From Phycisphaerae bacterium (lineage in GTDB: Bacteria; Planctomycetota; Phycisphaerae; Sedimentisphaerales; Anaerobacaceae), in NCBI GenBank assembly GCA_030619925.1, contig JAUXAL010000039.1:1-38331 (forward strand): a stretch of 38,331 nt of DNA, given 5' to 3'. The notes under the pieces are model-generated. The model searched no databases. It had not been told where the DNA came from and saw only the letters and a list, made by a program, of their open reading frames with translations. The position numbers and the translations under genes were made by a program. How positions within the stretch are numbered: position 1 is the stretch's first letter; the number at the start of each line of letters is the position of its first letter. Positions 4,953 through 38,123 of the stretch are shown here, piece after piece.

Positions 4953-6164
4953 ATGAAACGTTTAATGCTGATAATGTCGGTATTTTCCGTGTTGATAGTA
5001 ACCTCAAACAAAGGATTGGGCGGTGATTCACTTCTCAATCTCGGGCCCGAAGAGCTCGTTCAAGCCAACGGCGTGGACATCGAGGTGCCCGGTTACTCCG
5101 TGCCGTCCTTCGTGGACTGGAATAACGACAACCTGAAAGATCTGGTCATCGGCGAGGGCGGCGGCATTAGGGATGGGAAGGTCCGCGTGTACATTAATGT
5201 GGGAACCGAACCGAATCCGCAGTTCTCAGATTACTTCTACGCCCAGTCCGAGGGGGCCGATCTGACTTGTCCTGCGTCCGGCTGCCTGGGATGCTTCCCA
5301 CGGATGGTCTATTGGGATGACGACACACGCAAGGACTTGCTTGTGGGCCAGGCCGGTGGAACCGTCAGAATCTTCCGGAATATTGGCTCCGAGGAAAGTC
5401 CGAGGTTCGATGATGGGCCGTTCCTCCAGGTCGGCCAGCCCGGCTCGAAGAGAGACATCGACGTGGGAAGACGAGCAACCCCTTGTGTCGTGGATTGGAA
5501 CAACGATGGCAACAAAGACCTGGTCATTGGGGCCTTAGATGGCAGGATCTATATCTTTATCAATGAGGGAACCGAGACTGAGCCGGACTTTCTCGTCGAA
5601 ACCTTCGCGCAGACAAAAGGTTGGGAGCTGACTGTATACGGCAAACGGTCAAGTCCTGTGGTTGTCGATCTGGACGGCGACAGCAGGAAAGACATTCTTA
5701 CCGGCAACACGAACGGCCAACTGTGGTTCTACAGCAATGTCGGGACCGACGCCGAGCCGACCTTCTCGGATTACTCGCTCGTCAAGTCCGACGGCGTCGA
5801 TATCGACCTTCCGGGCTCGCCGCGGTCGAGGCCGTTCGTCTGCTTCTGGACCGGAGACGGCTACTTCGGCCCGATAGACGGCTACTTCGATGTGTTGATT
5901 GGAGCCTCCGACGGAAAGGTGCATCTGTACCGAGGCATACCCACATCCGGTGATATAGACGGTGACGGCGACGTAGACTTCGTGGATTTCGCCTTGTTTG
6001 CTGTTCATTGGCGGCAAACCGACTGCGGCCAATGCGGCGGAGCCGACTTAACCGACGATGGGAAAGTGGACACCGATGATTTACGCCGGTTTACTGAAAA
6101 CTGGCTGGAAGGTCTTGGGACCCCATTTTCCGATACGCCGCAAAATGGGAACCCTGTTGAATAG
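4953..6164 (+). CDS. Secreted FG-GAP/VCBS-repeat protein with dockerin-like tail
   Basis: A 403-residue exported protein. It begins MKRLMLIMSVFSVLIV, a signal peptide. GGAGGT at 4940-4945 fixes the ATG at 4953 rather than the GTG at 4857. The body is made of about five FG-GAP/VCBS-type blades, each with a DWNxDxxKDLVIG-like core (e.g. VDWNNDGNKDLVIG), giving a beta-propeller of the integrin-alpha type with calcium loops. Residues from about 330 form a dockerin-like pair of Asp-rich loops (DIDGDGDVDFVDF, then GKVDTDDL) with HWRQ and NWLEG. The last residues, GTPFSDTPQNGNPVE, are encoded by a 38-bp palindromic element that also occurs near two other genes, so the tail was probably altered by its insertion. 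Likely a surface-binding protein; its ligand is unknown. Confidence 0.85.
   Translation: MKRLMLIMSVFSVLIVTSNKGLGGDSLLNLGPEELVQANGVDIEVPGYSVPSFVDWNNDNLKDLVIGEGGGIRDGKVRVYINVGTEPNPQFSDYFYAQSEGADLTCPASGCLGCFPRMVYWDDDTRKDLLVGQAGGTVRIFRNIGSEESPRFDDGPFLQVGQPGSKRDIDVGRRATPCVVDWNNDGNKDLVIGALDGRIYIFINEGTETEPDFLVETFAQTKGWELTVYGKRSSPVVVDLDGDSRKDILTGNTNGQLWFYSNVGTDAEPTFSDYSLVKSDGVDIDLPGSPRSRPFVCFWTGDGYFGPIDGYFDVLIGASDGKVHLYRGIPTSGDIDGDGDVDFVDFALFAVHWRQTDCGQCGGADLTDDGKVDTDDLRRFTENWLEGLGTPFSDTPQNGNPVE
6117..6154 (+). repeat. Dispersed palindromic element, family A copy 1 (inside CDS end)
   Basis: 38 bp. CCCATTTT (6122-6129) pairs with AAAATGGG (6142-6149), and outer GGG pairs with CCC. Its first 13 and last 15 bases are identical to the reverse complement of the 38-bp copy at 18369-18406; only the middle differs. 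It codes for the last residues of the FG-GAP protein. Confidence 0.85.
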
Positions 6165-8059: not shown

Positions 8060-9436
8060 TCAGGATTTAGCTTTCTTTGCCTTTTTGGGCTTCTTTGGCT
8101 CTTTTGGTTTTTTCAGTTTTTTTGCTTTCTTGGCCTTCTTACCTGCCTTAGCAGGTCCGCCGCTGAGCATAAAAGCCGCACCAACCACCAAACCCGATAC
8201 CACGATAGCCCCAAGCAGGATATACCAGATTACGCCCTGTATTTGTGTCACAATCGAAGGCACCACACCCCTTAGACCTGCTACAGCCACAACTGCGGTG
8301 TAAACAAGAACCACCAACGGCAAAAACAGCAGCATTCCAATAGTATTACTTTGCGCATCTGGTGCCAGCTCAATATATGGCTGAGCTAATGCCGGGACCT
8401 CTAGAGCGGGTTGGGGACCGACAAACTCCTCCTCTTCGGTGAGTATTTGCTCTGCCTCAGCAGCCACGTCCGCTGCAGAACCGGCTTCAGCCGGCTCCTG
8501 ACCTTCACCTTCAGCCGTGTAAATTTCGTCAAGAATACCGCCTAATGAAGTATCATCAGCCTGCAGCGAAAGGTCCAACAGGCCCGAACCGCTTCCGAAG
8601 CTATCCAGATTTACATCTTCTTCGATCTTTTCCAATGGCACTTCAGGCGTTGTGCCTATTGTACCCGTTGTACCCGTTGTACCCGGTGGGGCTGTGGTCT
8701 CGGCCATCGTATCATCTGTTACTTGGTAATCACGGTCAGTTTCTCCGAGAACGCTGACTCCTTCGCCGGTTATGGCGGTGTCAGCATCGGTCAATTCACT
8801 TGGTGGCACTGACACGCCAGCTTCCGGTGCCAACAAAATCTCATCTGTGTCTGCCGCCTGTTCTGACGGTGCCGGAACCTCTGGTGCCAGCGCTTCAGGT
8901 TCCGGAGCTTCCAGTGCCGGAACTTCAAGTTCCGGAGTCTCCAGTGCCGGCTCTTCAAGTTCCGGAGTCTCCAGTGCCAGCTCTTCAAGTTCCGGAGTTT
9001 CCAGTACCGGCTCTTCAGGTTCCGGAGTTTCCAGTACCGGCTCTTCAAGTTCCGGAGTCTCCAGTGCCGGAACTTCAGGTTCCAGAGGCTCCAGTGCTGG
9101 CTCTTCAAGTTCCGGAGTCTCCAGTGCCGGCTCTTCGGGTTCCGGAGTTTCCAGTACCGGCTCTTCAGGTTCCGGAGTCTCCAGTACCGGCTCTTCAGGT
9201 TCCGGAGTTTCCAGTACCGGCTCTTCAGGTTCCGGAGGCTCTGGTGCCGGAGTCTCTTCGGATGCCGGAATACCCGTGTCGGACATCAATGCTTCGACTT
9301 CTTCAACCTTGAACAACAAATTCGGGCCATCACGAAACTCACGCAACTTACCGTCTTTGACTATCTCTTTTAATTCTTCCTCTGTTTTATTGAGTTTCTT
9401 GGCGGCTTCCTCTAATGAATAAAACATACCAGCCAT
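8060..9436 (-). CDS. HTH-domain protein with Pro/Glu decapeptide repeats, two membrane helices and Lys-rich tail
   Basis: 458 residues from ATG 9436, chosen because GGGAGG (9445-9450) sits eight bases upstream; the GTG at 9442 is too close. Residues 1-50 (YSLEEAAKKLNKTEEELKE onward) look like a MerR/excisionase-type winged helix. Twelve decapeptides of type EPEEPVLETP follow at about 69-188. Next come an acidic linker with a short Gly-Thr run, two hydrophobic helices (near LLFLPLVVLVYTAVVAVAGL and WYILLGAIVVSGLVVGAAFM), and a tail of AKKAKKLKKPKEPKK type. The order suggests a membrane-bound protein with cytoplasmic N- and C-termini, a stiff acidic arm and a basic tail that could touch nucleic acid or acidic lipid. 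Function is unknown. Similar HTH-plus-membrane proteins occur in planctomycetes. It is flanked by gene-poor DNA, with no operon partner. Confidence 0.85.
   Translation of the reverse strand: MAGMFYSLEEAAKKLNKTEEELKEIVKDGKLREFRDGPNLLFKVEEVEALMSDTGIPASEETPAPEPPEPEEPVLETPEPEEPVLETPEPEEPVLETPEPEEPALETPELEEPALEPLEPEVPALETPELEEPVLETPEPEEPVLETPELEELALETPELEEPALETPELEVPALEAPEPEALAPEVPAPSEQAADTDEILLAPEAGVSVPPSELTDADTAITGEGVSVLGETDRDYQVTDDTMAETTAPPGTTGTTGTIGTTPEVPLEKIEEDVNLDSFGSGSGLLDLSLQADDTSLGGILDEIYTAEGEGQEPAEAGSAADVAAEAEQILTEEEEFVGPQPALEVPALAQPYIELAPDAQSNTIGMLLFLPLVVLVYTAVVAVAGLRGVVPSIVTQIQGVIWYILLGAIVVSGLVVGAAFMLSGGPAKAGKKAKKAKKLKKPKEPKKPKKAKKAKS
8873..9232 (-). repeat. Twelve tandem 30-bp coding repeats
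   Basis: The DNA unit encodes a decapeptide of form E-P/L-E-E-P-V/A-L-E-T-P. Twelve units fit without a gap and the last is diverged. Unit variants (EPEEPVLETP, ELEEPALETP) are interleaved, which points to unequal crossing-over or slippage. There are no spacers, so this is not a CRISPR array. Confidence 0.9.
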
Positions 9437-18360: not shown

Positions 18361-18368
18361 AATTACCT

Positions 18369-18406
18369 GGGTTCCCATTTTGCGACTTATGGCAAAATGG
18401 GGTCCC
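18369..18406 (-). repeat. Dispersed palindromic element, family A copy 2 (at gspE/pilB start)
   Basis: 38 bp. On the minus strand it begins GGGACCCCATTTT and ends GCAAAATGGGAACCC, identical at both ends to copy 1 at 6117-6154, with a different 10-base middle. It abuts the chosen ATPase start, so it sits in the leader or, if an upstream start is used, codes for GPHFAISRKMGTQ. Confidence 0.85.
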
Positions 18407-18429
18407 ACCTCACTCATCCAAACATACAA

Positions 18430-18819
18430 TCAGACTAACCCCACAACCACTATCGACATTACCCCGTGCAGGCTTAAATGAGACACCGGCAATATGTCAG
18501 ATTTGATGGGGCAATAGGCCGAGACTGCGACCGATAACAAACCGGTCAAGAACTTCATCGGCACAGCAAAAGCAGAAACGTGTATGGCTCGTAATCCCAT
18601 TCTGCTCTGAGAAAATCTAAACTCGTCTGCTTGAGGACCTCTCTTTTTGCCATTTTGAGACGCAACATGCGTTTTTTTGCTAATACGAGCGCGCGTTTAG
18701 ACCGAAAAAGTCTGTGAAACAACTTTGGGGTGCGAAGGGGTCCAATTTGCCCCAAGTTGCAAAATGGGGGCCCAAAGAACTGAGACGTTCATATAGGGAA
18801 CCCTAAAAGGCAGACACTA
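18430..18819. other. Divergent promoter region between secretion ATPase and receiver gene
   Basis: About 390 bp with no supported gene. It separates the leftward E-F-G-H-I operon from the rightward signalling genes and must hold both promoters. A family A palindrome lies at each end (18369-18406 and 18737-18773), 368 bp apart. A lone GGGAACCC at 18796-18803 repeats the end sequence of that family. Confidence 0.6.
18737..18773 (-). repeat. Dispersed palindromic element, family A copy 3 (before receiver gene)
   Basis: 37 bp, more diverged. GGGGTCC, then AATTTGC, a short loop, and GCAAAATGGGGGCCC. It can fold into the same hairpin. It lies 46 bp before the start of the receiver gene at 18820. 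Confidence 0.75.
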
Positions 18820-19233
18820 ATGTTAGAATTGTTTAAGTCAAAAAAGAAAACCGATCGAGTCAAGATACTTATCGTTGATGATGAGCCTGATCTGGTCAGC
18901 ACCATTCAATATCGCCTTGAAGGTAGCAACTGTGAGGTTGTTACCGCCGCCAACGGAAAAGAAGGCCTGGAAAAAGTAGTGAGCGAAAGGCCGGACCTTG
19001 TACTGCTGGATACTAATATGCCGGTTATGAATGGGCACGAGATGCTCAGATGTCTCAGAGAGCACCAAGATTTAAAGGACACACCCGTAATAATGGTCAC
19101 TGTGATATGTGAGCCGCAGGATATAGCTACGGCCTCATCCTACGGCATTGCGGATTACGTTACTAAGCCGTTCGATTTCACGGAGCTGATGGAAAAAATT
19201 GCAAACGCCCTGAAAAATAAGGACACCGGGTAA
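18820..19233 (+). CDS. Stand-alone receiver (CheY-like response regulator)
   Basis: 137 residues, receiver domain only, after a short basic N-terminus (SKKKTDR). Acidic pocket D20-D21, phospho-acceptor D64 in LLDTNMPVMNG, Thr94 and Lys116 in DYVTKPFDF are all present, so it should be phosphorylated. There is no output domain, so it must act by binding a partner or passing phosphate. It heads the rightward signalling block, followed after 35 bp by the CBS-pair gene. AAGG lies 11 bases before the ATG. It differs clearly from the five tandem receivers at 22.4-24.6 kb. Confidence 0.92.
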   Translation: MLELFKSKKKTDRVKILIVDDEPDLVSTIQYRLEGSNCEVVTAANGKEGLEKVVSERPDLVLLDTNMPVMNGHEMLRCLREHQDLKDTPVIMVTVICEPQDIATASSYGIADYVTKPFDFTELMEKIANALKNKDTG

Positions 19234-22423: not shown

Positions 22424-22810
22424 ATGAATAGAAAATTATCTGTTTTGCTAATTGAAGACGAAGAGCACATCAGAGCAATCGTAGAATACAACCTGAAAAT
22501 GGATGGCATTGAGGTGTATCTCGCTGAAGATGGGCCAACCGGACTTAATATTGCAACAACCAAAGAACCGGACGTCATTCTATTGGATTGGATGCTGCCG
22601 GGGATGGACGGGTTGCAAGTGCTCGAAAAACTCAAGGCCGACCAAAGAACCAAGAGTATACCGGTAGTTATGCTGACCGTTAAAAGAATGATGCGCGATG
22701 TAGGAAAAGCGCTATATGCAGGCGCGGATGATTATATCGTCAAGCCGTTTGAACCGGAAGAGCTGGGTGAAGTAATCAGGCATAAACTTGAGAGCATTGT
22801 AAAGATTTGA
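22424..22810 (+). CDS. Stand-alone receiver, tandem copy 1
   Basis: 128 residues, a complete receiver with acidic pocket E11-D12, phospho-acceptor D55 in LLDWMLPGMDG, Thr85 and Lys107 in DYIVKPFEPEE, and no output domain. It differs from copy 2 at 12 of 128 residues, so that duplication is recent. The C-terminal helix ends KLESIVKI. It is probably phosphorylated by the kinase gene just upstream. A shared spacer carrying GGCACTTTTTTGCC follows. Confidence 0.93.
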   Translation: MNRKLSVLLIEDEEHIRAIVEYNLKMDGIEVYLAEDGPTGLNIATTKEPDVILLDWMLPGMDGLQVLEKLKADQRTKSIPVVMLTVKRMMRDVGKALYAGADDYIVKPFEPEELGEVIRHKLESIVKI

Positions 22811-22812
22811 AA

Positions 22813-22826
22813 GGCACTTTTTTGCC
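22813..22826 (+). repeat. Receiver-array spacer repeat, copy 1
   Basis: GGCACTTTTTTGCC, with GGCA able to pair with TGCC, is followed by gccca and a gttag-type sequence before the next ribosome site. The same block recurs after receivers 2, 3 and 4, at a fixed distance of 2-4 bp past the stop except where a palindrome is inserted. It marks the duplicated unit. Confidence 0.8.
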
Positions 22827-22857
22827 GCCCACGGTTAGACAACAAGGAGATTGACCA

Positions 22858-23244
22858 ATGAATAGAAGATTTTCTGTTTTGCTGATTGAAGACGAAGAGC
22901 ACATCAGAACAATCGTAGAATACAACCTGGGATTGGATGGCTTTGAGGTTTATCTCGCTGAAGATGGGCCAACCGGACTTAATATTGCAACAACCAAAGA
23001 ACCGGACGTCATTCTATTGGATTGGATGCTGCCGGGGATGGACGGGTTGAAAGTGCTCGAAAAGCTCAAGGCCGACCAAAGGACCAAGAGTATACCAGTG
23101 TTTATGCTGACTGCGAAAAGAATGATGAACGATGTAGGAAAAGCGCTATATGCAGGCGCGGATGATTATATCGTCAAGCCGTTCGAAGCAGAAGAGCTGG
23201 GTGAAGTACTCAGGCATAAACTTGAGAGCATTGTAAAGATTTGA
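22858..23244 (+). CDS. Stand-alone receiver, tandem copy 2
   Basis: 128 residues, about 91 percent identical to copy 1 by direct count. It carries the same pocket (E11-D12), D55, Thr85 and Lys107. Long stretches of DNA, including the whole segment encoding EDGPTGLNIATTKEPDV, are identical to copy 1. AAGGAG lies eight bases before the ATG. Changes cluster in the N-terminal helix (K25G, M26L) and around residues 82-91 (V82F, V86A, R91N), surfaces that usually choose partners, so the copies may have begun to separate in function. Confidence 0.93.
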   Translation: MNRRFSVLLIEDEEHIRTIVEYNLGLDGFEVYLAEDGPTGLNIATTKEPDVILLDWMLPGMDGLKVLEKLKADQRTKSIPVFMLTAKRMMNDVGKALYAGADDYIVKPFEAEELGEVLRHKLESIVKI

Positions 23245-23246
23245 AA

Positions 23247-23260
23247 GGCACTTTTTTGCC
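23247..23260 (+). repeat. Receiver-array spacer repeat, copy 2
   Basis: Same 14-base block as at 22813-22826, followed by gcccacgttaggcca. The spacer after receiver 3 repeats this almost base for base. Confidence 0.8.
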
Positions 23261-23292
23261 GCCCACGTTAGGCCAAAGAGGAGAACTGATTA

Positions 23293-23679
23293 ATGAGTGA
23301 GAAGATTTCTGTTTTGGTGGTCGATGACGAGGAGCATATCCGGAATATATTGGAATACAACCTGGAATTACATGGGTTTAAGGTTTACCAGGCCGAAGAT
23401 GGTCCCACAGCTCTTGAACTTGCACGAGAGAAAAAACCGGGCATGATTCTGTTGGATTGGATAATGCCGGGGATGAACGGGCTTCAAGTGCTCGAAAAGC
23501 TCAAGGCCGACCAAAGGACCAAGAGTATACCGGTGGTGATGTTGACGGCTAAAAAAATGCTGACCGACATAGTAAAAACGCTATATGCAGGCGTGGATGA
23601 TTATATCACCAAGCCGTTTGAACCGGAAAAGTTGTGTAAGATGATCAGGCGTAAACTTGAGAGCAATGTAAAGAATTGA
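23293..23679 (+). CDS. Stand-alone receiver, tandem copy 3 (mosaic)
   Basis: 128 residues, pocket D11-D12, D55, Thr85, Lys107. The N-terminal 24 residues (MSEKISVLVVDDEEHIRNIL onward) equal copy 4, but the middle (GLQVLEKLKADQRTKSIPVV) equals copies 1 and 2. A 45-base stretch (23487-23531) is identical to 23052-23096 in copy 2. It is therefore a mosaic made by recombination or gene conversion between array members. It is also the most changed at conserved spots (GAD to GVD before DYI; KMIRR near the end). GGAG stands before the ATG. Confidence 0.92.
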   Translation: MSEKISVLVVDDEEHIRNILEYNLELHGFKVYQAEDGPTALELAREKKPGMILLDWIMPGMNGLQVLEKLKADQRTKSIPVVMLTAKKMLTDIVKTLYAGVDDYITKPFEPEKLCKMIRRKLESNVKN

Positions 23680-23681
23680 AA

Positions 23682-23695
23682 GGCACTTTTTTGCC
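23682..23695 (+). repeat. Receiver-array spacer repeat, copy 3
   Basis: GGCACTTTTTTGCC followed by gaccacgttaggccaaaaagg. The bases before it, attgaaa, run directly into ggcac. This is the empty counterpart of the palindrome-bearing spacer after receiver 4. Confidence 0.8.
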
Positions 23696-23727
23696 GACCA
23701 CGTTAGGCCAAAAAGGAGAACTGACTA

Positions 23728-24114
23728 ATGAGTGAGAAAATTTCTGTTTTGGTGGTTGATGACGAAGAGCACATCCGGAATATATTGGAATACAACCTGA
23801 GACTGGAAGGCTTTGAGGTTTATCTCGCTGAAAACGGACGGACGGCGATTGAACATGCCCGCCAGAAAAAGCCTGATGTGATTCTGCTGGATTGGATGAT
23901 GCCGGAAATGGACGGGCTGGAAGTTTTATCTGAGCTTAAGCGCGATAAGACGACAGAGCATATACCTGTGTTTATGTTGACGGCTAAAGGAATGGCGAAC
24001 GATGTAGGAAAAGCGCTATTAAGAGGCGCGGATGACTATATTGTCAAGCCGTTTGAACCGGAAGAGCTGGGGGAAATGGTCAGGCATAAACTTGAAAGCA
24101 CGGTAAAGAATTGA
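23728..24114 (+). CDS. Stand-alone receiver, tandem copy 4
   Basis: 128 residues with pocket D11-D12, D55 in LLDWMMPEMDG, Thr85 and Lys107. The region EVLSELKRDKTTEHIPVFMLTAKGM groups it with copy 5, while its first 24 residues equal copy 3. There is no output domain. AAGGAG precedes the ATG. It is followed by the only array spacer that carries an inserted palindrome. Confidence 0.93.
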   Translation: MSEKISVLVVDDEEHIRNILEYNLRLEGFEVYLAENGRTAIEHARQKKPDVILLDWMMPEMDGLEVLSELKRDKTTEHIPVFMLTAKGMANDVGKALLRGADDYIVKPFEPEELGEMVRHKLESTVKN

Positions 24115-24116
24115 AA

Positions 24117-24138
24117 GGGCCCCCGCTCCGCGGGAACC
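24117..24138 (+). repeat. Palindromic element, family B copy 1, inserted in a receiver spacer
   Basis: 22 bp: arms GGGCCCCCGC and GCGGGAACC around TC/C. The three sister spacers read attgaaa-ggcac or gattgaaa-ggcac without it. Here attgaaa is followed by this palindrome, then AAA, then ggcac, an addition of exactly 25 bp. AAA on both sides may be a 3-bp target duplication. Confidence 0.85.
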
Positions 24139-24141
24139 AAA

Positions 24142-24155
24142 GGCACTTTTTTGCC
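24142..24155 (+). repeat. Receiver-array spacer repeat, copy 4
   Basis: Same GGCACTTTTTTGCC block, pushed 25 bp downstream by the inserted palindrome, followed by gcccacgttaggccaaaaagg before receiver 5. Confidence 0.8.
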
Positions 24156-24186
24156 GCCCACGTTAGGCCAAAAAGGAAACTGACTT

Positions 24187-24582
24187 ATGAGTAAAAAAAT
24201 TCCTATTTTGGTAGTTGAGGACGAAGAGCACATCCAGAATATATTGGAATACAATCTGAAACTGGATGGCTTTGAGGTTTACCTCGCTGAAAACGGACGG
24301 ATGGGGCTTGAACATGCCCGCCAGAAAAAGCTTGAATTGATTCTGCTGGATTGGATGATGCCGGAGATGGATGGGCTGGAAGTTTTGTCTGAGCTTAAAC
24401 ACGATAAAAAGACAAAGCATATACCTGTGTTTATGTTGACGGCCAAAGGGATGTTAGGTGAAATCGACCGGGCCTTCAATGTAGGGGCTGATGATTATAT
24501 TACTAAGCCTTTCGATCCTGTACTATTAGGTAACACCATTAGGAAAAAATTAGAAGAATGTGCGAGCCGGAACAAGGTTTGA
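24187..24582 (+). CDS. Stand-alone receiver, tandem copy 5
   Basis: 131 residues, the most diverged array member. Pocket E11-D12, D55 in LLDWMMPEMDG, Thr85 and Lys107 (DYITKPFDP) are intact. The last 35 residues (GEIDRAFNVGADDYITKPFDPVLLGNTIRKKLEECASRNKV) differ from the others, so the alpha4-beta5-alpha5 output face is probably specific. AAGG precedes the ATG. It closes the intact array; a broken sixth receiver follows. Confidence 0.92.
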   Translation: MSKKIPILVVEDEEHIQNILEYNLKLDGFEVYLAENGRMGLEHARQKKLELILLDWMMPEMDGLEVLSELKHDKKTKHIPVFMLTAKGMLGEIDRAFNVGADDYITKPFDPVLLGNTIRKKLEECASRNKV

Positions 24583-24707: not shown

Positions 24708-24717
24708 GAGGATTCCC

Positions 24718-24749
24718 GCCCGTCTTGGCTCGGCCAAGCCGAGACAGGC
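24718..24749. repeat. 32-bp imperfect palindrome, family D
   Basis: It starts GCCCGTCTTGGCTCGG and ends CCGAGACAGGC. The two halves match with only transition mismatches, so an RNA would fold fully with G-U pairs. Part of it (AGCCAAGACGGGC, reverse complement) recurs at 30446-30458, downstream of the secretin gene. Confidence 0.75.
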
Positions 24750-24958
24750 AAAGCGGGGCCCCGACCGCATTCTTGCCGAGAATGAATTTAGAGCCAAGAA
24801 TCCAAAATTGAGGAGGCGAAAATCAGCAAAAAGATGAATCGGCTATTACCCCCCCAGTGTCATTAAGGGCGCCATTGGCTGATTTAGATAAAACATTTGT
24901 GTGTTGAAAACAAGCCGGCCAAAGTGGAGTGGTCTGTTAGGTTAGAGACGGTAAAAAA

Positions 24959-26575
24959 ATGCAGTACCCAAAGAATAAAATCCGGGCTTCCACAGCTCTG
25001 ACCCTGCTGGAGATGGTTATAGCTCTGGCGATAATGGCCACCGTCTTTGCAGCCATACTGCCATTATTTAGAAGCATACAGAACAGCTGGGACTCCAAAC
25101 AGGCTGCCGCTGAAACAGTCCAGAATGGCAGAATCCTGATAGACCACTTAAACCGCAACCTCGCAAAAGCCGTCAAGATAACCGCTGTAAGCGACTCGGC
25201 AACAACCATCGGCTATATCCAATTTGAAGACAATGACGGAAACAACCTCGAATATGATATTGCCAACAGCTACGTCAGATTTGGCGTCGTAGGAGACCTT
25301 TCAGACCTCGCAGGGCCGGTCAGCCAACTACAGTTTACTTGTTATGATGCCAATGATTTTGGTACGCCGATCACGGATGTCAATCATATCCGCTCCGTAA
25401 AAGTGGAAACAATGCTGACCAATTCAGCCACAATGGGTCAGGATAAAACCTTCACAACCTTAGCTTACCTTCGTACAAATGCCAACAAACAAGGGGAGGG
25501 AATCACCAAAAAAACGCCTTTCGAGTTTGACACCCTTCAAGGAAAAACTCCCGCTTTGGCACAAGTAGATGACACACATTATTTGTGCGCTTATACCGGA
25601 TGGGATGGCAGTGGCCGGGCAGTTATTTTCACAGTAAACCCGATTACCTGGACGGTCAGCAAAGGAACGGTTTTCGAGTTCGACGCTTCTGATGGAAAGA
25701 CTCCGGCTTTGGCAAAGATAGATGACGACAACTATCTGTGTGCGTATGAGGGGCCGGACTCAGATGGCTGGGCTGTTGTTCTCACAGTGAACCCGATTAC
25801 CTGGACGGTCAGCAAGGGAGCGGCTTTCGAGTATGACACTTCTAAAGGAAAGACTCCGGCTTTGGAAAAAATAGACTATGACCATTACCTTTGTGCCTAC
25901 AGGGGTGACCGTGATGACGGCTGGGCAACGGTCCTGACAGTCAATACAGGGACCTGGACGATAGCAAAAGAGACGCCTTTTAAGTTTGACAACCAGGCAT
26001 GCGACACACCTGCTCTATCAAAGATAGACAACACGCACTATCTTTGTGCATACGTGGGTAGGAAAAATAAAGGCTGGGCGACGGTCCTGACGGTCAATAC
26101 AGGGACCTGGACGATAGCAAAGGAGACACCTTTTGAGTATGACACTTCTAAAGGAAAGACTCCAGCTTTGGCACAAATAGATGATGACAACTATTTATGT
26201 GTCTATGAGGGGTCGGGCTCCGATGGCTGGGCCGTTGTTCTCACAGTGAATCCGATTACCTGGACAATCAGCAAAGGAGTGACTTTTGAATATGACAATA
26301 AAGAAGCAACAGCACCCGCTTTGGCACAAATAGACAATAACCGCTACCTATGTGATTACAGCGGTAAGGGTGGTGATGGCTGGGCTGTTGTTCTCGTGGT
26401 GGATCCGACGACGTGGACAATCAGCAAGGAAACGCCTTATGAATATGATGCTTCCAAAGCAAAGGCTCCGGCTTTGGAACAAATAGACGATAAGTATTAC
26501 CTTAGTGCCTACGAGGGCGGGAAAAGCAAGGGCTGGTCAGTGGTGCTGGCAGTGGACAAGAAGGTGAGACCCTGA
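24959..26575 (+). CDS. GspJ-like pseudopilin fused to seven 51-residue repeats (predicted beta-propeller)
   Basis: A 538-residue protein. The N-terminus MQYPKNKIRASTA precedes LTLLEMVIALAIMATVFAAIL, a prepilin-type helix with the conserved Glu. Residues to about 175 fit the GspJ minor pseudopilin (AETVQNGRILIDHLNRNLAKAV). From about 184 to the end there are seven repeats of exactly 51 residues: Pro in the (T/A)PAL motif falls at 198, 249, 300, 351, 402, 453 and 504. Each has FEYD...TPALAQIDDxxYLCAYEG...GWAVVLTVN...TWTISK. Seven blades suggest a closed seven-bladed propeller carried at the pseudopilus tip, a possible adhesin or substrate receptor (inference). The Leu of ALTLLE replaces the usual Phe at the cleavage point. 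It heads the rightward J-K-M/N-O-D group; no strong ribosome site is seen. Confidence 0.87.
   Translation: MQYPKNKIRASTALTLLEMVIALAIMATVFAAILPLFRSIQNSWDSKQAAAETVQNGRILIDHLNRNLAKAVKITAVSDSATTIGYIQFEDNDGNNLEYDIANSYVRFGVVGDLSDLAGPVSQLQFTCYDANDFGTPITDVNHIRSVKVETMLTNSATMGQDKTFTTLAYLRTNANKQGEGITKKTPFEFDTLQGKTPALAQVDDTHYLCAYTGWDGSGRAVIFTVNPITWTVSKGTVFEFDASDGKTPALAKIDDDNYLCAYEGPDSDGWAVVLTVNPITWTVSKGAAFEYDTSKGKTPALEKIDYDHYLCAYRGDRDDGWATVLTVNTGTWTIAKETPFKFDNQACDTPALSKIDNTHYLCAYVGRKNKGWATVLTVNTGTWTIAKETPFEYDTSKGKTPALAQIDDDNYLCVYEGSGSDGWAVVLTVNPITWTISKGVTFEYDNKEATAPALAQIDNNRYLCDYSGKGGDGWAVVLVVDPTTWTISKETPYEYDASKAKAPALEQIDDKYYLSAYEGGKSKGWSVVLAVDKKVRP
25508..26572 (+). repeat. Seven tandem 153-bp coding repeats
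   Basis: The period is exactly 153 bp across the C-terminal two thirds of the pseudopilin fusion. Repeats 2 and 5, and 3 and 4, share long near-identical DNA (acctggacgatagcaaa type), which shows recent internal duplication or exchange. Repeat 7 is the most changed and ends the protein. Confidence 0.9.
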
Positions 26576-27003: not shown

Positions 27004-28544
27004 CGCCGGGAGCTAAAACCGCACTGGGAATAGAAATTTCGGGCAACAATATCAATCTGGCGCTGCTTAGAAAGACCAGAAATGGCGTTGAATTGCTAAA
27101 GACCGCCACCGGGCCTGTTCCCGATGGGGCAATAAAGGACGGCAATATTGAAGACGCAATAGGTTTAGCCAAGGCGATAAAAGAGCTGAAAACTAAAAAC
27201 AAAATACGTGCACGTCACGCAGCGTTGTCGCCGGTTATCGAGCCGATGCTGCTGCAAGTCGTGGACCTGCCCAATGATGCTCCAATTAACGTAGGGCAAT
27301 TCGTACAGAATGAAGTGAAACACTATGCAATGCTGTCAATGAAAAGGATTGCGATGGATTTCTGCGGAATAACGTCGTCGGGCAAATCGGGCAATCGACG
27401 GGTATTTGTAGTTGCCACAGACAATCAAAAGATTACTGAGCTTACGAAGGCACTGAATCAAGCAGATATAAATATAGATGCTATTGAACCGCCTTTAGTG
27501 GCTTATATCAGGGCCTGTTATGCAAAAAGGATCGCCAAAAAATTTGAACAGAATTTACTATTCGCAATAGTTCATGAGGGCGCTCTTACTTTATGTCTAT
27601 TCAAAAACCAAATGCTTGATTTTGTAAGGACAAAGCGCCTTGAGGCCCACAAACGTGACTCCGACGAATGTCTCGAATGGATAGCAGAAGAGATAAATGC
27701 GGTACTAAAATTCTACGAGCTTGAGGTTCATAATAAACGCAATAAATGGGAGGTGACCCTCCTCACAAGTATTCGCAACAGGCCCGTTAAGGAAAAGGCA
27801 GAATTACTGGCCACCAAACTCAAGGAAGGAACCCCGTTTTATGATTTGTCGCAAAATGAGAGCCAAATAGAACTGAAAGTTAGAACTCTGGAAGATGCAT
27901 ATCTTGACACACCGGTTGCAGACACAACTTGTGCCGACAAGCCTTCAGCCATTGCCGTCGGATTGGCCATGAAACCTTTGAACTTTCCGAGTTGTGGTTT
28001 GAATATCAATCTTCTTCCAGCGGAGACCTCTGAGGTTAAATCGGCAAGAAAGCATACTTTGATAATTGCAAATATTGCAGCGGTTGTTTTACTTCTGACG
28101 ATTTTGAGCATCGGCTTTTTAAGCATAAAAGTGAAAAAGATAAGTGAGAATGTAAAGCAAAAACAGCGGACGCAGTTGGGACGCAATACTCAGGCGATAC
28201 TAAACGAACAAGTCTTACTAAGCGAGCAAATCGCAAACGTATCCGAGAATCTCAACGGCATGAGCGCTATTTTGAGTGCTGGACCTTTTTTACGGTGGGA
28301 CCAAATTCTTAATGAGATTAGATCCGCAATACCTAAAACGGTGCGAATTACAAACCTGTTCGGTGACGAGAATTCGAGAGTATTATTTAAGGGGCAGGCT
28401 CTTTCGTATGAATCTATTCACCTTTTTGCTGATGTGCTTAACAACGCAACGCATGTGGAATCCGCTTCACTGATTGGAACCGAAAAGGATAGTGAGCTAA
28501 GTAATCTGGTGATGTACTCTATTAGTTGTTCCTTAATTGAGTAA
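27000..28544 (+). CDS. PilM-PilN fusion (type IV pilus / secretion inner-membrane assembly protein)
   Basis: 514 residues. Positions 1-330 match PilM, an actin-like ATP-binding protein on the cytoplasmic face (ALGIEISGNNINLALL, LSPVIEPMLLQVVDLP, VVATDNQKITELTKAL, AIEPPLVAYIRA). At 335-342 NINLLPAE, the start signature of PilN, appears, then a membrane helix at about 353-376, a coiled coil and the PilN periplasmic domain (WDQILNEIRSAIPKTVRITNL). PilM normally binds the N-terminal peptide of PilN, so fusion makes that contact permanent. In type II secretion GspL has the same arrangement. The start ATG overlaps the previous stop. Residues 278-288 (GTPFYDLSQN) resemble a decayed family A palindrome peptide. 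Confidence 0.9.
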   Translation: MTPGAKTALGIEISGNNINLALLRKTRNGVELLKTATGPVPDGAIKDGNIEDAIGLAKAIKELKTKNKIRARHAALSPVIEPMLLQVVDLPNDAPINVGQFVQNEVKHYAMLSMKRIAMDFCGITSSGKSGNRRVFVVATDNQKITELTKALNQADINIDAIEPPLVAYIRACYAKRIAKKFEQNLLFAIVHEGALTLCLFKNQMLDFVRTKRLEAHKRDSDECLEWIAEEINAVLKFYELEVHNKRNKWEVTLLTSIRNRPVKEKAELLATKLKEGTPFYDLSQNESQIELKVRTLEDAYLDTPVADTTCADKPSAIAVGLAMKPLNFPSCGLNINLLPAETSEVKSARKHTLIIANIAAVVLLLTILSIGFLSIKVKKISENVKQKQRTQLGRNTQAILNEQVLLSEQIANVSENLNGMSAILSAGPFLRWDQILNEIRSAIPKTVRITNLFGDENSRVLFKGQALSYESIHLFADVLNNATHVESASLIGTEKDSELSNLVMYSISCSLIE

Positions 28545-36262: not shown

Positions 36263-36495
36263 GTCGTCGTTGGCTCACCAGGCACATTGAACGTGACATA
36301 CTCAATTGCCTGTTTCTTCAACTGTTCAAGATGCAGCCTGACCCGTTCGACAGTACGGCCAGTGACGACAAAAGCGCGAATTCGGGTTCCCGCTTCGCGG
36401 GGGCCCTTTCCCATCTCCGACGCCAAGGGCGCAGCTTCCTGGATTGTACCATGGCCAAAAATTATGCGCGTTGCGGTCGAAAATTCAAATCTCAT
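36241..36495 (-). pseudogene. Iron-containing alcohol dehydrogenase, N-terminal fragment
   Basis: MRFEFSTATRIIFGHGTIQEAAPLASEMGK, then AFVVTGRTVERVRLHLEQLKKQAIEYVTFNVPGEPTTTIV, is the N-terminal nucleotide-binding half of a group III (iron) alcohol dehydrogenase. After about 80 residues of a usual 380-400 the frame ends in VRNRM and TAG. The metal-binding half with its conserved His residues is absent, so it cannot be active. GPREAGTRI after MGK is encoded by a palindromic element and interrupts an otherwise normal strand, which suggests an in-frame insertion. It follows the monooxygenase-like gene by 31 bp on the same strand, so the two were probably an operon before the break. Confidence 0.8.
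36384..36406 (-). repeat. Palindromic element, family B copy 2, inside dehydrogenase fragment
   Basis: On the minus strand: arms GGGCCCCCGC and GCGGGAACCC around GAA, 23 bp. It shares its arms with copy 1 at 24117-24138 and its end sequences with family A. It encodes most of the extra peptide GPREAGTRI. Confidence 0.85.
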
Positions 36496-36526: not shown

Positions 36527-36835
36527 CTAATCCCAACCCTGCTCGTCAGGGAACACATTAGTGTATTTGACACTGGTACGTGGTTCGGCCATCATGTCGG
36601 CCACGGTATCGCGCCACTTCTGATAATGCGTCGTCTCTTTGTGCTTGGCGGGATCATCGGCAGTGCGATAGACTTCGACCAGTACGAAACGTGTGGGGTC
36701 ATCTTGTTGCTGGATGACATCAAATCGAGCAATGCCTGGTTCCTTGATGCTGTTACGAGCATTTTCAAGAGTGGCTGCCCGAAAGGCTTCAACCTGGTCG
36801 CGCGCAACATGGACAAAAACATGGACTATAAACAT
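36527..36835 (-). CDS. Antibiotic biosynthesis monooxygenase / LsrG-like domain protein
   Basis: 102 residues from ATG 36835, fixed by GAGGAG just upstream; an earlier in-frame start at 36901 would read through a palindromic repeat. The single ABM ferredoxin-like domain is clear: [57 protein letters not shown], then [17 protein letters not shown]. Such small dimeric proteins oxidise or isomerise quinol-like or autoinducer-type compounds without a cofactor; LsrG and YgiN are known members. Members are often next to iron alcohol dehydrogenases, as here. The substrate cannot be told. Confidence 0.9.
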
Positions 36836-36847
36836 GACATTCTCCTC

Positions 36848-36885
36848 GGTTCCCATTTGGCAATAAGTCGCAAAATGGGGGCCCC
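36848..36885 (-). repeat. Dispersed palindromic element, family A copy 4 (before monooxygenase-like gene)
   Basis: 38 bp; shares ATAAGTCGCAAAATGGG (17 bases) with the middle and right arm of copy 2 read from its minus strand, and has GGTTCCC / GGGGCCCC ends. It lies 13 bp upstream of the chosen gene start, outside the coding part but covering the leader. On the minus strand it would encode [13 protein letters not shown]. Confidence 0.85.
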
Positions 36886-36966
36886 TTACATGTTTCAACA
36901 TTCAAAAAAGTATGTGCTTCTGTAGATAGTGATGGACAAAAAAACCGCGTTAACCGCAAAAAACAC

Positions 36967-37714: not shown

Positions 37715-38123
37715 ATCTACTCCATCGGTAAAGACAGAAAACCTCAATTGCTATAATCCACAAATATAAGAACTTGCTATCCGCCGGCTATTATATCTAA
37801 GAATTTTTTCTACGTCAAATACCATATCATCAACCTCTGCAGATTGTGAAACCGGAGCTGCTGCCGGTTCGCCGTGCTGAAAGTCGGAGAACCACTGTGG
37901 CCGAATCAATAACCAATAATCAATCAAGAAAGGGGCCTATACTGAGTCAATCAGTATAGGCCCCGGAGGACTAATAAACAATCAGCTAACTAACTTAACC
38001 TCGTATCAATGCCGATTACGGCCGCGGCCACAGTCCCGATGTACCGGGAGCAAGCCACTATCCACTGAACCGGCACCTACACCTTTGGCTCCATCTGCCA
38101 GGTTGGGTTGCGCCGCAACTTTA
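37715..38123. other. Gap with strong terminator hairpin
   Basis: About 400 bp with no supported gene. The 14-bp perfect hairpin at 37932-37964 stands out and should stop the leftward transcript of the right-edge gene. The rest is mixed, with a GGCCGCGGCC palindrome near 38021-38030. The promoter of bioY must lie left of the hairpin. Confidence 0.55.
37932..37964 (-). terminator. Perfect 14-bp hairpin, intrinsic terminator of right-edge gene
   Basis: GGGGCCTATACTGA (37932-37945) pairs fully with TCAGTATAGGCCCC (37951-37964), loop gtcaa. Read on the minus strand it is followed by TTTCTTGATTGATTATT, a T-rich tail, and lies about 160 bp after the stop of the gene ending at 38124. No comparable T-run follows on the plus strand. 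Confidence 0.7.

Follow-up and report, generated by a model that had tools for sequence, protein, structure and literature searches.

REP-like palindromes are mostly explained by the action of a RAYT on single-stranded DNA, without target duplication. The REPs of E. coli have a conserved mismatch in an imperfect stem (excerpts of PMC8266576), some REPs are placed inside other palindromes, such as GTAG-23 of T. roseum, and CGTC REPs too are said to be without a dedicated transposase (both from excerpts of PMC3733652). MITEs such as Correia/NEMIS, RUP and ERIC are about 100-200 bp long with mostly TA ends, and the Rickettsia palindromic elements, at 105-146 bp, occur in frame in genes for conserved proteins as well as between genes, their target duplication being given as '?' (excerpts of PMC2229807).

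We examined a window of DNA from a Phycisphaerae bacterium, meaning the whole stretch of 38,331 nucleotides that was analyzed, in which four copies of a dispersed palindrome (family A) had been predicted. All four were found where they had been placed, both in the sequence itself and with a covariance model, R1, built from 20 copies including the four of the window (6115-6156 on the minus strand; 18367-18408, 18734-18775 and 36846-36886 on the plus strand). It was also confirmed that copies 1 and 2 share the same ends and differ only in the center, that copy 1 lies in the 3' end of a gene, and that copies 2 to 4 lie ahead of gene starts. Copy 1 (6117-6154, minus strand) is translated in frame as part of an FG-GAP protein ORF (4953-6164), close to its C-terminus, and encodes 13 of the last 15 residues. 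Copy 2 (18369-18406, plus strand) is intact, reads GGGTTCCC-ATTTTGC-GACTTATG-GCAAAAT-GGGGTCCC, and stops 8 nt ahead of the ATG (18360) of a T2SSE/GspE-type ATPase gene. It is flanked by ACCT on both sides (18365-18368 and 18407-18410, plus strand), a target-site duplication that had been overlooked in the original prediction; the left ACCT reads AGGT on the minus strand, and AGGT stands in the Shine-Dalgarno position ahead of that ATG. Copy 3 (18737-18773, plus strand), located 46 nt before a receiver gene at 18820, is decayed and folds no better than its own shuffles (z -0.23). Copy 4 (36847-36884, plus strand) is partly decayed and adjoins the Shine-Dalgarno of an ABM-domain gene that starts at 36835 on the minus strand. 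Gene starts and Shine-Dalgarno sequences were read by eye. The folds of copies 1, 2 and 4 compared to shuffles gave z values of -4.05, -5.98 and -2.87, respectively, and no direct repeat of 3 bp or more flanks copies 1, 3 and 4. A weak fifth match (27825-27865) falls within a coding ORF and is probably due to chance.

In the 4.02 Mb genome, the pattern CCCATTTTGC-N8-14-GCAAAATGGG was found at 16 sites, its reversed counterpart at none, which upholds the earlier view that these palindromes are not a product of chance. A genome-wide count with a covariance model had been proposed as a check, and model R1 recorded at least 60 distinct places at E<=1 and at least 46 at E<=0.001, both lower bounds from our own tally with 150 of 2804 first-look candidates scored; this is above chance. 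A looser collar scan of an unselected 356 kb, comprising 20 other contigs and the window, returned 27 raw matches, some overlapping or doubtful, compared to 1 for the reversed pattern. The collar pattern GGGTTCCC-N3-33-GGGGTCCC matched 66 times in the host's own genome (reversed, 0) and 177 times over 100 genomes (reversed, 8; our own sums). A chance origin was ruled out by these reversed-pattern controls.

We characterized the anatomy of the unit in a catalogue of 151 copies pooled from the host's genome and its relatives, with incomplete de-replication (two or more orthologous pairs and a duplicated row remain). The family-A unit runs exactly from GGG to CCC, is mostly 38 or 39 nt long, and has the layout GGG-TT-CCCATTTTGC-loop-GCAAAATGGG-GT-CCC with a loop of 8-9 nt. 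Each stem pair follows Watson-Crick rules in 101-149 of the 151 copies. At the outer collar position, T.T occurs in 64 copies, T.C in 29 and a Watson-Crick pair in 18, while at the inner collar position T.G occurs in 105 copies and a Watson-Crick pair in 20. A TT/GT irregularity of two bases is retained inside an otherwise paired stem. Among 95 copies for which the orientation of the loop relative to the collar was scored, 49 were forward, 26 reversed and 20 unclear, and the strictest subset (n = 34) gave 21, 7 and 6. Both orientations would be expected if the hairpin is formed in vivo with occasional inversion of its loop.

The collar GGGTTCCC...GGGGTCCC was found to be common to hairpins with different inner stems. 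Under it lie GC (22-23 nt in total), ATTTTGC (38-39 nt), or, in a 36-nt class, AAACGC, AATCGC, AAAGCC, AATCCC or AGCCGC. Lineages differ in their mix of inner stems, with genome G056 carrying mostly AAACGCGA and AATCGCGA stems. The changing middle noted in the original prediction was seen on two levels, as the loop varies within family A and the whole inner stem is different in sister families. Three sister elements of the GC class, with the same collar and another inner part, had been missed in the window: a 23-nt element inserted 2 nt past a stop codon (24117-24139, minus strand), a second 23-nt element (36384-36406, plus strand), and a nested palindrome with another hairpin within its loop (24710-24762, plus strand). 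Covariation in the arms, which had been put forward as a further check, was detected in the 36-nt class, where five of the six free pairs showed double changes across 44 sequences. These 44 are the distinct 36-nt sequences among the matches listed (G056 C509:16500, at least, is left out), with the collar fixed by the search pattern. Double changes filled 18 cells compared to 3.6 after shuffling, a count reached in none of 500 shuffles, and every slid register was far worse. Pairing in the stem is therefore preserved even as its sequence changes.

The flanks of the catalogued copies were then considered. A perfect direct repeat of 3-4 bp surrounds 38 of the 151 copies compared to 4.4 under permutation, and among the exact-ended copies 17 of 38 have one compared to 2.4, with neither the 3-bp nor the 4-bp count of this set reached in any of 2000 permutations. 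The repeats are varied (TCT, CTT, ATT, AGA, ACCT, TTCT, TGTA, TGGA and others), and since their sequences differ they are target duplications and not parts of the element. Their length also varies, at 3 or 4 bp in family A and 1 bp only in the 23-nt GC class, in which a 1-bp repeat was seen in 34 of 38 elements (24.5 expected) with no excess at 3 bp. Class B hairpins have 3-bp repeats in 3 of 8 cases (0.36 expected). Within family A, the 39-nt copies with a repeat have 3 bp in 11 of 11 cases, while the 38-nt copies have 3 bp in 16 and 4 bp in 10 (Fisher p 0.018). The 113 copies without a perfect 3-4 bp repeat may reflect decay or another kind of junction.

Empty counterparts of occupied sites were found as well. 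In the mnmE gene of the host's genome, the family-A copy forms 14 extra codons after ...EDIE, whereas the mnmE of relative G003 reads straight through this place at the DNA level. The 14 residues are missing from MnmE in 8 of the 10 relatives' loci fetched (G003 included), the search motif having no match in the remaining two. It was also noted that the open frame of the occupied mnmE (locus L007, 454-2466, minus strand) spans 671 residues compared to 483 in G003, and contains, all in frame, a GC-class copy and other repeat-like expansions besides the family-A copy. Within the window, three paralogous leaders of tandem receiver genes (near 22797, 23231 and 23666) have no counterpart of the GC-class copy at 24117, and they match the joined flanks of that copy with 2-3 mismatches in 28. 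Another case is the recipient hairpin GGGGCCTATACYGATT..., which occurs empty in the window (GGGGCCTATACTGA..TCAGTATAGGCCCC, 37932-37964, plus strand) and at L198 and L199; elsewhere in the genome, at L004, L009, L010 and L073, its loop holds a family-A copy. The four filled cases share loop types and so need not be independent events. The neutral ceramidase at L038 was dropped as a further empty site, as its PDB alignment stops short of the insertion.

Several other repeats were observed. The window contains five similar tandem genes of 128-131 aa, apparently for receiver domains (22424-24582), with spacings of 434, 435, 435 and 459 bases, leaders included; the longer spacing results from the hairpin inserted at 24117. 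The hairpin GGGGCCTATACYGA..TCRGTATAGGCCCC at 37932-37964, L198 and L199 is a separate dispersed hairpin that serves as an insertion target. Tandem repeats with 15/30-base and 153-base periods lie within ORFs at 8809-9288 and 25493-26557, and two perfect 34-base direct repeats, TCTGTGGCTAAAAAAATCCGTGTAATCCGTGGTT, lie at 1489-1593. At L143 and L145, GC-class elements have flanks similar to the TCTGTGGCTAAAAAAATCCGTGTAATCCGTGGTT repeats.

The flanking duplications and empty sites point to a mobile palindrome and not to a promoter module. The original prediction had spoken of a mobile or selected hairpin; the first half of this is supported by the duplications and empty sites, while the suggested role at promoters and gene starts is not. 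We consider it probable that family A represents a small mobile palindrome, non-autonomous, whose collar is recognized in trans and whose insertion leaves a 3-4 bp duplication. Points against this reading are the 113 copies without a perfect repeat, the unfixed length of the duplication, the lack of any recognized gene with these ends in the loci searched, and the unit's length of 23-38 bp, very short compared to ordinary DDE transposons.

The genomic contexts of the copies bear on whether the hairpin is instead a selected cis-acting RNA or DNA control element ahead of genes, such as an attenuator, a ribosome-binding-site hairpin or a protein site. This would fit the position of copies 2 and 4 at ribosome-binding sites, the stable folds of three of the four window copies, and the compensatory change that maintains the stem in the 36-nt class. 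However, 108 family-A copies from the host's genome and its relatives were found in mixed contexts. Predicted coding sequence is overlapped by 56, and by our own count 24 of these are 60 nt or more away from either predicted gene end. The neighboring genes are co-directional for 32 intergenic copies, divergent for 11 and convergent for 6, and 3 copies are at contig edges. Copies just before starts are under-counted here, since our rough gene caller sets starts too far upstream and takes window copies 2-4 as coding. No hairpin was found in the 60 nt before the ATG at the 7 relatives' GspE-type loci, out of 11, in which the ATG was readable (of the other four, three were read on the wrong strand and one started two codons late). 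Copies 1-4 are not followed by a T-run, and no Rfam family was assigned, with only two tRNAs in the window reaching the gathering score. A control hairpin is highly improbable on this evidence, and the special role that had been proposed at gene starts and at a divergent promoter was unsupported.

Translated copies, 22 in all, were picked for seeming to lie in genes, and in-frame copies were found in mnmE (L007), recJ (L064) and rpoC (L182). The recJ copy adds residues compared to the solved RecJ structure (PDB 8y30). In rpoC, TGGA is duplicated, giving 42 nt in total; this case is based on the open frame, the 4-bp repeat and domain matches, as the PDB alignment ends before the insertion. No stop codon is present in any of the six frames in 64 of 102 well-kept copies, and copies have a mean of 5.55 open frames compared to 3.60 for permuted hairpins, a null that is generous because six-frame openness is dominated by one shared stem sequence. 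As 38 + 4 and 39 + 3 both equal 42 nt, or whole codons, and most copies are stop-free, insertions should be tolerated in genes. We read the six-frame openness as a tolerance that lets copies survive in genes.

Copies were also encountered within other palindromes. Class B hairpins occupy the loop of class A copies at L213 and L219 and lie inside the collar of a class A copy at L178, and other hairpins lie in the loops of family-A copies (L043, L227) and of GC elements (L123 and 24710 in the window). A preference for hairpin loops is an impression from these cases. In a separate set, GC-class copies were observed in the loop of the hairpin TGGACCCCTGCTTT..TCGCAGGGGTGAC or near variants (L060, L124, L130, L131, L138, L139 and L312). 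The TGGACCCCTGCTTT..TCGCAGGGGTGAC hairpins are related to TGGATTCCTGCTTTCGCAGGAATGACA repeats, which were found empty too (L018, L204). Some of the GC-class copies in this set are at contig ends.

We assessed the distribution of the family across bacteria. Model matches at E<=0.001 were found in 24 of 61 genomes of the host's family and in none of 39 genomes from other families of the order; collar matches were found in 17 of the 61, across 15 genera, and in none of the 39. A draw of 299 genomes from the class, made with stricter filters, gave 8 genomes with matches at E<=1e-5, all in the host's family, of which 25 members were listed and taken as all from the listing order. The other 274 genomes, some of them the same as the 39, had no model match at that threshold. 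An exact-pattern scan of a contig collection yielded 43 stretches, 39 with planctomycete labels (Phycisphaerae, Phycisphaerales, Sedimentisphaerales or Planctomycetota). We rejected three stretches from Firmicutes (L160, L176, L183) as members, the outer collar being absent. A contig labelled Babeliaceae (L153) carries a true copy with an ATC repeat and is likely a binning error, its sample prefix being the same as that of a Sedimentisphaerales record. Collar hairpins of class A and class B were also seen on two IMG/VR contigs (L346, L347), where a between-host route is possible.

If family A were a REP proper, its stem-loop would be moved as single-stranded DNA by a RAYT (Y1/HUH) that is absent from the assembly or located at a distance. 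The size class and high copy number would suit this, as would the conserved and functionally required stem mismatch (AA-GC) that E. coli REPs also have in the excerpts of PMC8266576. Y1 transposase (Y1_Tnp) matches were indeed found, 4 in the host's genome and 49 in 13 of the 15 element-bearing relatives searched. However, none of the 34 Y1 loci inspected out of these 53 (4 of 4 from the host, 30 of 49 from relatives, all in draft genomes) had a model match or a collar nearby. Instead, 23 of the 34 had a hairpin of their own, footed by TAG/CTA in 14 (L017, L018, L019, L096, L097, L101, L106, L108, L109, L111, L112, L115, L117 and L118). These 14 loci are apparently local REP/RAYT systems, and their TAG/CTA hairpins resemble the published RAYT pattern. 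Variable inner stems were observed in the hairpins near these RAYT-like genes.

The relative G019, at 74% completeness, has 28 model matches and no Y1 match. GTAG and CGTC each abut 1 of the 151 copies, and no flanking position of the 38 exact-ended copies exceeds 0.31 bit. Only 23 of the 151 copies are preceded by CT, the cleavage dinucleotide of the E. coli RAYT. With the inspected Y1 loci lacking the collar, G019 lacking a Y1 match, and no GTAG/CGTC foot, the usual REP route is unsupported. IS200/IS605 elements are, moreover, described without larger target duplications in the excerpts of PMC2817692, while 38 of the 151 copies have them here. We regard a REP proper as unlikely.

A parent insertion sequence was sought among the half-arms of three draft genomes (G000, G003 and G023), bearing in mind that draft assemblies lose multi-copy insertion sequences. 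By eye, no facing pair of half-arms 0.4-5 kb apart was found among 114 listed places. The fetched loci, which cover part of these places, contained no gene with family-A ends among the half-arms and no long-distance collar pair with matching flanks. As no transposase was found with family-A ends, the hairpins could in principle have spread passively, with no dedicated enzyme, by capture of hairpin DNA at staggered breaks or by template switching during replication. The variable length of the duplications (1 to 4 bp), the insertions into hairpin loops and the loops inverted relative to the collar are compatible with this. However, the ends are precise and the collar is constant across the 177 exact matches in 17 genomes and 15 genera, and both the kept TT/GT mismatch and the confinement to one bacterial family suggest specific recognition. 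Passive spread is therefore judged quite unlikely.

Returning to a mobile palindrome recognized in trans, the following route can be proposed. A protein supplied in trans would recognize the collar GGGTTCCC/GGGGTCCC, probably on a folded single strand or an extruded cruciform, and the element would enter at a staggered cut, which leaves 3 or 4 duplicated target bases at either end. The targets include intergenic DNA, ribosome-binding sites and genes as well as loops within other hairpins. The inner stem and loop would be free to change provided that they remain self-complementary, and families with the same collar could then coexist while lineages come to differ in their mix. A broader reading, which we advance only tentatively, is that of an as yet undescribed class of mobile hairpins whose enzyme reads the GGG-TT-CCC / GGG-GT-CCC collar, accepts any self-complementary middle, favors hairpin loops as targets and leaves 3-4 bp duplications. 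Under this tentative extension, the collar might serve as the address and the middle might be exchangeable cargo, in a class almost confined to one family of Planctomycetota.

A REP-sized element with clean duplications, a mismatch collar kept over changing stems and in-frame entry into genes such as rpoC, recJ and mnmE would suggest a second route by which such palindromes spread. As the copies are short and numerous, the rule of recognition (collar compared to stem) can be read from natural sequences and could be tested with oligonucleotides. In the literature searched, most subscription journals being outside its coverage, we recognized no account of the collar or of such repeats in this lineage; a constant mismatched collar over changing stems, in particular, had no description that we found there.

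Compared to the known systems, family A resembles REPs in being a 20-40 nt, high-copy palindrome with an imperfect stem, and agrees with them in size and copy number. It departs from them in tag, in RAYT and in duplication, having no GTAG/CGTC foot, no element-flanked RAYT at the 34 loci inspected, target duplications, and various inner stems under a constant collar. With MITEs, as described in the excerpts of PMC2229807, it shares terminal inverted repeats, target duplication and a non-autonomous character; unlike them, a single hairpin here makes up the whole unit. No parent IS was recognized among the half-arms of the three draft genomes. Like the Rickettsia palindromic elements, it is found in frame and without stops in conserved genes (mnmE, recJ and rpoC), but it differs in its 23-39 nt size, its duplications, its conserved mismatch collar and its bacterial hosts. 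Family A, well supported as mobile, behaves as a hybrid of REP and MITE, and inside genes it resembles the Rickettsia palindromic elements.
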